A stretch of DNA of 21,949 bases from IMG/VR virus record IMGVR_UViG_3300034418_012165, positions 1 through 21,949 of that record. One strand, written 5' to 3'. Numbering within the stretch: the stretch's first letter is position 1; each line of letters begins with the position of its first letter. The DNA comes from a virus. Positions 1 to 15,217 of the stretch are shown here, one piece after another. Under the pieces are notes generated by a model. The model saw nothing but the letters and a program-made list of their open reading frames with translations. It did no database searches and had not been told where the DNA came from. The translations under genes and the position numbers were made by a program.

Positions 1-249
1 GAGGATATGAAGAACAAAGAACACAGAATCCACCCTACCCAAAAACCTGTGGCTTTGTACACTTGGCTTCTCGATAAGTACGCACAAAAAGGATGGAAGA
101 TTCTGGATACACATCTTGGAAGTGGTTCATCTGCCATAGCTGCCCATGATATGGGATTTGAGTTCCATGGGTATGAACTGGATACAGAATACTTTGAAGC
201 TGCTTCCAAAAGATTGAAACTACACCAACAACAACTACAACTATTTTAG
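1..249 (+). CDS. DNA adenine methyltransferase, C-terminal part (partial)
   Basis: The frame is open at the left edge of the window, so only the last 82 residues are seen. They carry the HPTQKP motif followed by a motif I-like glycine loop (DTHLGSGSSAIAA) and an acidic-aromatic tail (GYELDTEYFEAASKRL). In this order, with the catalytic DPPY/F motif expected upstream, they fit the C-terminal half of a beta-class N6-adenine or N4-cytosine methyltransferase (N6_N4_Mtase family). The glycine loop binds S-adenosylmethionine. The next gene repeats this C-terminal domain almost residue for residue. The first ATG inside the window (position 7) is probably an internal methionine, because the catalytic half must lie further left. 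The target sequence cannot be read from this part. Confidence 0.85.
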   Translation, partial: EDMKNKEHRIHPTQKPVALYTWLLDKYAQKGWKILDTHLGSGSSAIAAHDMGFEFHGYELDTEYFEAASKRLKLHQQQLQLF

Positions 250-262: not shown

Positions 263-871
263 ATGATACACCTATATAACCAAGATTGCATGGAAGCCAT
301 GGCATCCATGAAAGATAATGAGTTCGATTTGGCTATTGTGGACCCACCTTTTGGTATTGGTAATTTTGTTCAAAATAGTGGGAATAAAAGAGGAAATAAA
401 ATATTTTGGAATAATAATACCCCCTCACAAAAATATTTTGATGAATTAAAAAGAATTTCTAAACATAGAATTATTTTTGGAGCGAATTATTATAATTGTT
501 TTGAAGAAAAACATGGCGCTATTATTTGGTTAAAAAATCAATGTATGCCTAATTTTTCTAAAGCAGTTATCGCTTCATGTACATTTCATAAAAAAATAGA
601 ATTGTATGAACAAACATGGACAAATTATGTTCATGATGGAAGGCTTGGGATTCATCCCTGTGAAATGCCTGTGGCCTTATATACTTGGCTATTGGATAAA
701 TATGCACAAAAGGGATGGAAGATTCTGGATACACATCTTGGAAGTGGTTCTTCCGCAATAGCCGCCCATGATATGGGATTTGAGTTCCATGGGTATGAAA
801 TTGATGAAGAATACTTTGAAGCCGCTTCCAAAAGACTGAAATTACACCAACAACAACTACAACTATTTTAG
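263..871 (+). CDS. DNA adenine methyltransferase, beta class
   Basis: This 202-residue protein has the catalytic DPPF motif at residues 27-30 and a variable central region. After that come HPCEMP (a diverged form of the usual HPTQKP) and the AdoMet-binding loop DTHLGSGSSAIAA near residues 153-165. This order is that of beta-class N6-adenine/N4-cytosine methyltransferases, which methylate an exocyclic amino group in DNA. No restriction partner is visible, so it is probably an orphan enzyme that protects phage DNA, which is inference. The start has a good ribosome site (AGGAGAATCGGAACC before ATG). Bases about 355-680 are much richer in A and T than both ends and use AAA, AAT, TTT and ATT codons heavily, so the middle of the gene looks imported. 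The C-terminal domain duplicates that of the preceding gene. Confidence 0.9.
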   Translation: MIHLYNQDCMEAMASMKDNEFDLAIVDPPFGIGNFVQNSGNKRGNKIFWNNNTPSQKYFDELKRISKHRIIFGANYYNCFEEKHGAIIWLKNQCMPNFSKAVIASCTFHKKIELYEQTWTNYVHDGRLGIHPCEMPVALYTWLLDKYAQKGWKILDTHLGSGSSAIAAHDMGFEFHGYEIDEEYFEAASKRLKLHQQQLQLF

Positions 872-13649: not shown

Positions 13650-14573
13650 TTACGCGTCGGTAGCAATAAGAACACCACGAGCTTGTTCAACAATAGCCGC
13701 TCCTGTGTATGCTGTACCCACTACCTTAGTGAGGGAATAAGCGGAATCACGTTCAATTTCTACCATCACGGGAGTTCCAGCGGGGCGGATTTCACCGTTT
13801 GGAGCTGCCAAAGGAACGGGAGTTCCAAGGGCATAAGCAATAGCACCCGCGGAGAACATTGCACCTTCTCTATCTGCTCCATTCAATGGACAGAAAGAAG
13901 ACTTGTGGATTTGAACGCCCATGAAATCACCTACATAACCTTGGCCAAGTGATTTCAAAAGGTCATGGTGTGCTGGATTGAAAGCAATAGCGTTAGCGGT
14001 TTCATTACGAATAGAAGCTTGTAAATCAGCAATCTGACGTGGGTGAAGAACTGCGAACAATTGAGAAGGATTATCCGCGATTTCAAGAAGATAAAGAGCA
14101 TCCATGAAATCATCCACAGACATATCCACACCTGTGGAACCCGCACTAGCGGAAAAACCTGTGAAGGTAGCGCATACCATTTCCATGAAACGAGATTCAA
14201 AAGCGCCCGCCATGGATTCAGCAAGACGGAAAACATCAATATCGTTTCCAAGCTTGGTGAGAGCTGCCAAATCTGTAAGGTCATAACGCAGTCCAATTCT
14301 TCCCACTGTGATATCTGCGGTAGCGGTTGAAAGGTTGGAAGATGTGATTTCCGCACCATCTCCAACGGTGTTCATAGCTTCATATCCATCCAAACCCGCA
14401 TAACGCAAAGTAAGAGAATCTGAACCCATTCCCGCAATATCTCCCGCAAAGAGAAGAGCGCCAGAATTACGGATTGAAGCGCCATCATGGAGAAGAGCGC
14501 GAACTTCATTTTCAATCATGGCATCAAGTCTAAGACCATCACCATTCAATACACTATAAGTAATAGTAGCCAT
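13650..14573 (-). CDS. Major capsid protein, HK97 fold
   Basis: This 307-residue protein has features of HK97-fold coats: an ALLFAGDIAGMGSDSLTLRYAG strand region and TADITVGRIGLRYDLTDLAAL. A long helix follows (DIDVFRLAESMAGAFESRFMEMVCATFTG), then SQLFAVLHPRQIADLQASI and a GVQIHKSSFCP segment. The C-terminus (MVEIERDSAYSLTKVVGTAYTG) is also typical. There is no long N-terminal delta domain, in line with the separate scaffold gene. The ribosome site is AGGAAAATAAA before ATG. It has its own promoter about 80 bases upstream and two hairpins downstream, so it seems to be an independently boosted unit. That fits the need for several hundred copies per virion. Confidence 0.88.
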   Translation of the reverse strand: MATITYSVLNGDGLRLDAMIENEVRALLHDGASIRNSGALLFAGDIAGMGSDSLTLRYAGLDGYEAMNTVGDGAEITSSNLSTATADITVGRIGLRYDLTDLAALTKLGNDIDVFRLAESMAGAFESRFMEMVCATFTGFSASAGSTGVDMSVDDFMDALYLLEIADNPSQLFAVLHPRQIADLQASIRNETANAIAFNPAHHDLLKSLGQGYVGDFMGVQIHKSSFCPLNGADREGAMFSAGAIAYALGTPVPLAAPNGEIRPAGTPVMVEIERDSAYSLTKVVGTAYTGAAIVEQARGVLIATDA

Positions 14574-14651
14574 TTTATTTTCCTATATTTTAAGAGGTTG
14601 GGGTTTCGTGGTTCTACGTTGTTACGGTTACGACCCTCACCACTCTTTTGT

Positions 14652-14680
14652 ATTATACAAGGTTTTTCATAACCTGTGAA
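14652..14680 (-). promoter_or_regulatory. Sigma70-type promoter for the capsid gene
   Basis: The minus strand has TTCACA (14680-14675), a 17-base spacer, and a perfect TATAAT (14657-14652). The -35 element matches TTGACA at five of six positions and lies inside a DnaA box (TTATTCACA, 14683-14675). Transcription would start near 14645 and leave a leader of about 70 bases before the capsid ATG. Confidence 0.7.
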
Positions 14681-14728
14681 TAACCTGTGTATAACTTTTT
14701 TCACAGCCTGTGGAAAACCTGTGAATAA
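14675..14728 (-). promoter_or_regulatory. DnaA-box array, module A
   Basis: Five 9-base DnaA-box-like sites start at 14675, 14686, 14697, 14709 and 14720, about one helical turn apart. On the minus strand they read TTATTCACA, TTATACACA, TTTTCCACA and TTATTCACA. The middle one (TTTTTCACA) is on the plus strand. Three fit the consensus TTATNCACA exactly, and the other two differ at one base. The 254-base non-coding stretch 14574-14827 contains this module, module B and the capsid promoter. Confidence 0.75.
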
Positions 14729-14773
14729 CTTTTTTGAATCTTCATTCTGTGTGTGTTTTATCGTGTTTTTGCC

Positions 14774-14827
14774 TGTGGATAACTTGTGGAAAAAGTTATT
14801 CATAGCCTGTGGATAACTTGTGAATAA
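14774..14827 (-). promoter_or_regulatory. DnaA-box array, module B
   Basis: Five sites start at 14774, 14785, 14796, 14808 and 14819, each exactly 99 bases from its partner in module A. On the minus strand they read TTATCCACA, TTTTCCACA, TTATCCACA and TTATTCACA. The middle one (TTATTCATA) is on the plus strand. The two TTATCCACA sites are ideal DnaA boxes. The module abuts the stop codon of the upstream gene. Confidence 0.75.
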
Positions 14828-15217
14828 CTATATTCCTCTCCTTTGAAACAAATCTATACACTTGGCAATATCTTCCTTTTCACTGTGTTGGGAACCACAA
14901 AAGGATATGATGGATTTTTTGTTTCTCAGATTGGTGATGTTATCACAAGTCGTTCCACTTACTTCTCCCGTGGCGCTATTGGTTTGGGTCATGCACATGA
15001 GTTCCCTACATAGTTCATCCCCATTCTTCTCGATAAAAGAGGGAGAACAAATTGGTGATACCACATCAAGCTTTCCCAATTCTTTAGCCACGGGGTCAAT
15101 GGGAACCACAATTGGAGCTGGTTCTTTTTGGGAGGATATCACCCCAAAGGTTACACTTCCCCCAACAATCAAACCCACAACACCCGCCACAATAATTTCA
15201 ATCATCTTGTTTTCCAT
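14828..15217 (-). CDS. Membrane-anchored cysteine-rich protein
   Basis: This 129-residue protein has an N-terminal membrane segment with glycine packing motifs (IIVAGVVGLIVGGSVTFGVIS). A soluble domain with six cysteines follows (SPICSPSF, ELCRELMCM, TTCDNI, SFCGSQ, AKCIDL), likely disulfide-bonded outside the cytoplasm. I do not recognise a family. The ATG at 15217 lies three bases after the T-tract of a terminator and has no ribosome site. The in-frame ATG four codons later (15205) has GGAAAACAAG before it and may be the real start. Possible roles are host-envelope modification, superinfection exclusion or a spanin-like lysis function, all inference. Confidence 0.65.
   Translation of the reverse strand: MENKMIEIIVAGVVGLIVGGSVTFGVISSQKEPAPIVVPIDPVAKELGKLDVVSPICSPSFIEKNGDELCRELMCMTQTNSATGEVSGTTCDNITNLRNKKSIISFCGSQHSEKEDIAKCIDLFQRRGI

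Follow-up and report, generated by a model that had tools for sequence, protein, structure and literature searches.

The bacterial initiator DnaA recognises nine-letter boxes for which binding assays, as quoted in PMC5835720, give the consensus TTWTNCACA, and in E. coli boxes beginning with TTTT are bound well only if they carry C at position 5 (PMC5835720). Binding can also govern transcription, the E. coli dnaA and mioC promoters being repressed by DnaA and dnaA being derepressed by boxes supplied in trans, in a cell with about 200 DnaA monomers per origin (PMC5835720). At the lambda origin, according to references given in PMC3985674, DnaA activates transcription. Here, we describe a stretch of phage DNA that, judged by its sequence, is a conserved array of DnaA type and, in one group of relatives (clade A), is linked to the capsid promoter; from it we infer the further step from binding to function.

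The window, that is, the whole stretch of 21,949 nucleotides that was analysed (IMG/VR record IMGVR_UViG_3300034418_012165), derives from a marine tailed phage. A search with its DNA returned no cultured relatives, and by capsid protein the only cultured relative is Phage DSL-LC06, at 25% identity; a search for the host through capsid relatives in genome contigs gave only matches at 31% identity, on three MAG contigs. The major capsid protein gene (13650–14573, minus strand, 307 aa) matches phrog_544, major head protein, with an E value of 2e-8, and the ORF on the far side of the array (14828–15217, minus strand, 129 aa) has no family match; relatives of it also adjoin the array in L172, L197, L203, L238 and L241. 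Genes for a primase-like protein and a VapE-type helicase are present on long contigs of clade A. Two tandem DNA methyltransferase ORFs at the start of the window (1–249 and 263–871, plus strand) have nearly identical C-terminal halves, which suggests a recent partial duplication.

Ten DnaA-box-like 9-mers lie within 153 bases (14675–14827), all of them between the 129-aa ORF and the capsid gene and hence upstream of the latter, and their coordinates and orientations were checked in the window. Six are exact copies of TTATNCACA and the remaining four have one mismatch each; TTWTNCACA is matched exactly by nine, the sole exception being the box at 14796 (TTATTCATA), with one mismatch. The promoter-proximal five-box module (14675–14728, minus strand), in which all five boxes fit TTWTNCACA and the slots are kept in ten relatives, consists of TTATTCACA at 14675 (−), TTATACACA at 14686 (−), TTTTTCACA at 14697 (+), TTTTCCACA at 14709 (−) and TTATTCACA at 14720 (−). 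The promoter-distal module (14774–14827, minus strand), which directly adjoins the stop codon of the 129-aa ORF at 14828, consists of TTATCCACA at 14774 (−), TTTTCCACA at 14785 (−), TTATTCATA at 14796 (+), TTATCCACA at 14808 (−) and TTATTCACA at 14819 (−). The original prediction had described ten boxes, six of them exact, in two modules offset by 99 bases, with a pitch of 11–12 bases and an inverted central box, upstream of the capsid gene; all of this was found in the window, the gap location and the PHROG match bearing out the placement. The 99-base offset is no general rule, since it is about 98–100 in the nearest relatives and the modules of the L014–L020 group are about 45–47 bases apart. 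The array in the window is not a product of chance: in 1000 first-order Markov windows, the maximum number of exact boxes per 153 bases was two (996 had 0 or 1), against six observed, and the window as a whole holds 46 boxes at up to one mismatch, against 25.9 expected. An 85-aa ORF running across the array (14546–14803) was rejected as a gene because there are indels between the boxes, and what is conserved is boxes and promoter, not codons.

Comparison among relatives makes a well-supported case that the boxes are under selection for DnaA binding. Aligned over ten close relatives, the direct boxes show 98.9% identity at their seven fixed letters, compared with 52% at position 5, which is free, 70% at position 3, 75% in the inter-module spacer and 60% at codon position 3 of the capsid gene. 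The letters within a box also covary. Homologous slots alternate between TTAT(A/T/C)CACA and TTTTCCACA, with both forms (TTTT included) in six of eight slots, and in clade A, C occupies position 5 in 25 of 30 TTTT boxes but only 8 of 106 TTAT boxes (Fisher p 1e-15 with shared descent ignored, a value that is too small because of shared descent and exchange between boxes). This coupling of T3 with C5 fits the preferences of E. coli DnaA (PMC5835720); it is absent from 127 other viral array loci, where C5 is dominant in both box types, and the test is therefore valid for clade A only. The selective agent is most likely DnaA. A DnaA C-terminal domain was looked for in seven phage records and not found, which would leave the host's DnaA as the binder, and on the sequences the best reading is a cooperative binding site for host DnaA in a phage in which no DnaA was detected. 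The DnaA-binding array originally proposed thus has strong support from conservation, within-box covariation and an oriC-like 2-bp gap.

The boxes do not stand at the capsid gene in all relatives. Scanning IMG/VR with the capsid protein gave 20 loci, with closely paired exact boxes in 17 of their records, and a capsid profile scan gave 304 relatives, of which 80 were kept. Clade A, set at a capsid identity of at least 69% (23 loci, near-duplicates among them), has the array upstream of the capsid gene in 20 of 23 loci, those lacking it being L283 (same contig as L006), L007 and L296. In clade B (43–56% identity, 57 loci), none of the 57 has it there; in five of 11 clade B contigs (G024, G028, G030, G035 and G036), the VapE helicase gene has an array of 12-bp pitch as its immediate neighbour (L365 5794–5946, L366 5934–6032, L367 10405–10505, L368 8725–8876 and G024 27236–27292, in L362), several of them adjoining GTGACA-type repeats. 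In clade C, with capsids at 33–39% identity (L222, L234, L239, L240, L189 and L271), the array is again upstream of the capsid gene. These contigs are fragments and may be incomplete, which makes absences of the array soft. Relatives with the flanking genes but not the boxes had been named beforehand as evidence against the proposal, and the capsid gene does stand without boxes in L006/L007, L296 and the whole of clade B, though not in most of clade A; a universal link between array and capsid gene is ruled out by the array-less capsid loci together with the VapE-side arrays. Dense arrays occur once per genome, at the capsid gene (clades A and C) or at VapE (clade B) and never at both among the contigs seen, so that the array behaves as one movable module, its VapE-side position in sister phages indicating a genome-level role.

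In the window, the predicted capsid promoter combines a −10 hexamer, TATAAT (14652–14657, minus strand), which is perfect in all array-bearing clade A loci, with a −35 hexamer, TTCACA (14675–14680, minus strand), which lies inside the proximal DnaA box, the two giving an 11/12 match with a 17-bp spacer. Of 19 clade A loci with an array, 18 have the −35 (TTCACA or TACACA) in the last letters of the proximal box, at 16–18 bp from a perfect TATAAT, L297 being the exception, and in L014 and L016–L019 the −10 is also covered, by an inverted box. A DnaA box over core promoter elements, the mark of repressed promoters of the mioC/dnaA type, is therefore present in clade A but not in clade C (L222, L239, L240, L271, L189 and L234), where the array lies upstream of the capsid promoter with no box overlap and, in L189 and L234, a 162-aa gene stands between the two. 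The array-less L006/L007 keep the promoter, with TTTACA as the −35. As shuffled sequence yields about one promoter-like site per region, the TTCACA-17-TATAAT match is weak by itself and the weight lies on its conservation; as any TTATNCACA box resembles a −35 (NCACA versus TTGACA), the overlap is no proof, and given the 11-bp pitch the 16–18 bp distance may be partly automatic. Within these limits, the overlap is a suggestive sign, in sequence, of promoter control. The idea of a capsid switch, likewise raised from the first, gains support in clade A from the coincidence of proximal box and −35 and does not extend to the relatives in general, some of which, clade B as a whole among them, have no capsid-side boxes.

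The −10 is placed so that transcription would begin at a conserved capsid mRNA leader of 39 bases (14607–14645, minus strand), the predicted start lying at or near its first base, 14645. Among ten relatives the leader is 94% identical, compared with 77% for the rest of the UTR, and it is kept in aligned capsid relatives with or without DnaA boxes. A P1 helix, GUGGU/ACCAC, encloses a possible H-type pseudoknot; P2 is GGG/CCC, GGU/ACC or CGG/CCG, a single mismatch occurring in L015, L016 and the window itself, and letters of the loop can pair downstream (CGU/ACG, CAC/GUG, CGC/GCG or UCGUU/AACGA), the pseudoknot helix being weak in clade C. The P1 and P2 helices covary among relatives, the pairs having been found by a simple script on hand-picked stretches, with no covariance model. 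An Rfam search of the capsid upstream region, leader included, returned chance-level matches only, and a known RNA family was accordingly rejected for the region.

A four-box pattern was found in at least 120 stretches of IMG/VR, in unrelated groups. Across 145 arrays the commonest spacing is 11 (358), followed by 12 (49), the former owing something to a search pattern that requested that gap, and the number of boxes ranges from 4 to 25. By context, 57 of 139 array loci fall into groups in which the array is close to genes for packaging (small terminase, large terminase, portal), 12 are capsid-type and 70 are mixed, their neighbours serving recombination, replication and structure; of 55 large terminase genes, 53 point away from the array. 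Among cultured phages, arrays or clustered boxes are found in Berlinvirus P483 and A7, T5-like phages and microviruses. Taken at the level of sequence, capture of host DnaA appears to be common among phages, whether the array is a decoy or an origin, and it is hardly discussed in the literature searched. In Berlinvirus P483 and A7 (L273 2991–3116; L274 1490–1615), the array comes after the DNA packaging gene and, in A7, near the record end. Microvirus mar31 (L276 1439–1557) has eleven TTTTCCACA boxes in a perfect 11-bp tandem between its capsid and pilot protein genes, and another viral contig (L202 6768–7202) has 25 exact DnaA boxes in a single 435-base cluster. A separate phage group with an SU10/P22-like portal (L047, L052, L084, L093, L095, L138, L164, L173, L178, L194 and others) carries arrays upstream of its genes for small terminase, endolysin, large terminase and portal, often with GP88 on the opposite side.

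The function we propose, tentatively and at somewhat less than an even chance, is that of a host-DnaA decoy which, in this lineage, is also part of a capsid promoter that DnaA represses and replication releases. At the start of infection, while phage genomes are still few, host DnaA would occupy the array and deny RNA polymerase access to the capsid promoter; with the multiplication of phage DNA, each copy bringing ten boxes, the boxes would come to exceed DnaA, the promoter would be freed and capsid mRNA made, while the host origin would be starved of DnaA. At about 200 monomers per origin, as in E. coli, some tens of phage copies could suffice. The array would in this way be a decoy and, in this lineage, also a late switch that senses copy number, and the decoy part would explain arrays elsewhere in related phages, the promoter part being clade-specific. 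Repression would fit the overlap with the −35, the large number of boxes and the changing position of the array; against it stand the clade C boxes lying off the promoter, the box-less relatives that keep leader and promoter, and the clade B arrays at VapE. DnaA could also be an activator of the capsid promoter and not its repressor. The broader claim, that in many phages copy number is sensed through the host initiator, late structural genes being silenced by a DnaA array until phage replication titrates DnaA away, which also stops host replication, is doubtful.

The array might also be the DnaA-binding half of a phage origin, where host DnaA would oligomerise, open the DNA and help to load the VapE helicase/primase, a possibility we hold to be somewhat unlikely. 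It has the phased boxes with 2–3 bp gaps of a DnaA-dependent origin, its head-to-tail boxes with 2-bp gaps being like those of the E. coli oriC arrays (PMC4451416). There is a single dense array per genome, and the gap that holds it is AT-rich (35% GC versus 43% in the window). Some plasmid origins combine iterons and DnaA boxes, and the clade B array, adjoining GTGACA-type iterons, resembles them. Adjacency to replication genes or iterons is, however, confined to the five clade B contigs; in the window the array sits within the late block, in clade A it is distant from VapE, and clade A contigs have iterons of their own near early genes (TGTTCCAA in G010, TTGTCCC in G015 and G019, and GTGTCAC in G021), which are better placed candidates. 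VapE-type helicases, moreover, occur with or without an array. GC skew, suggested as a check, does not mark the array as an origin: there is no switch at it, and because skew tracks the coding strand, likewise in the array-less G020, it is uninformative on this point. Such phage-specific iterons, in tandem or inverted and close to early or replication genes, are candidate origins at G010 about 960–1150 (L030), G015 1074–1262, G019 28589–28951 and G021 26266–26594, and also in G020, G023, G027 and G031 of clade B; TTTATCCCAC, GTGTGAAAC and AGGTTGGACAG are further motifs of this set.

A pure decoy, titrating host DnaA and halting new host rounds from wherever it lies in the genome, with the promoter overlap incidental, is in our estimation unlikely. 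The array is a cluster of consensus DnaA boxes, as a datA-type titration site is, and both datA and plasmid-borne boxes titrate DnaA (PMC5835720); its position differs between clades and unrelated phages, box number varies widely with most boxes consensus, and it is missing from many relatives, as for an auxiliary trait. Yet a decoy has no obvious need for a strict 11-bp pitch or a conserved inverted central site, and about half of the array loci examined (57 packaging plus 12 capsid-type of 139) are near, mostly upstream of, late/structural operons, which would not be expected of a decoy indifferent to position, although wide gaps between early and late genes and common descent may bias this figure. 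A T5-like role during DNA entry or packaging, in which a nucleoprotein block would pause DNA movement, is very improbable: the T5-type injection stop signal is described with DnaA boxes (PMC13250531), and T5-like phages have box arrays in their terminal repeats, as Berlinvirus has near its ends, but here the array is mid-contig and not at a genome end or in a terminal repeat, upstream of the capsid gene and at least some 5 kb from the terminase genes, and IMG/VR annotation of the contigs of the window and its relatives found no end repeats. Equally far from likely is a phage DNA-binding protein of DnaA-like specificity as the reader of the sites; tandem repeats of other motifs, at 11–12 bp, do stand beside VapE in other clade B contigs (G023, G027, G031 and G020), but TTWTNCACA and the T3–C5 coupling agree with DnaA binding data, and many unrelated phages have these boxes too.

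If DnaA does control the capsid promoter, a host protein would report to the phage how many copies of itself are present, and replication would be tied to virion production with no need of a dedicated late activator; similar arrays in E. coli phages (Berlinvirus P483) make the idea experimentally accessible. Among known systems, the E. coli mioC and dnaA promoters share boxes at a DnaA-repressed promoter, with plasmid boxes titrating DnaA and derepressing dnaA (PMC5835720), but they are chromosomal and have few consensus boxes, whereas the phage has ten, in two modules, at a predicted capsid promoter whose −35 is itself a box. E. coli oriC likewise has two arrays whose sites point the same way and are 2 bp apart, placing DnaA on one helix face (PMC4451416); its sites are of low affinity, flanked by high-affinity ones, whereas the phage array is nearly all consensus, with an inverted centre in each module. 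The datA locus also clusters DnaA boxes that bind much DnaA, but has two consensus boxes plus others with one misfit, and also lowers DnaA-ATP (PMC5835720). In the T5 injection stop signal and T5-like terminal repeats, DnaA boxes again occupy a non-coding stretch of a lytic phage (PMC13250531), there few and scattered in a terminal repeat among pre-early genes, here dense and phased in the late region. At lambda pR/pO, as PMC3985674 and its references describe it, host DnaA similarly binds phage DNA near a promoter and affects transcription, but through two box-like sites in the replication region and by stimulation, whereas here a dense array adjoins a late structural promoter.
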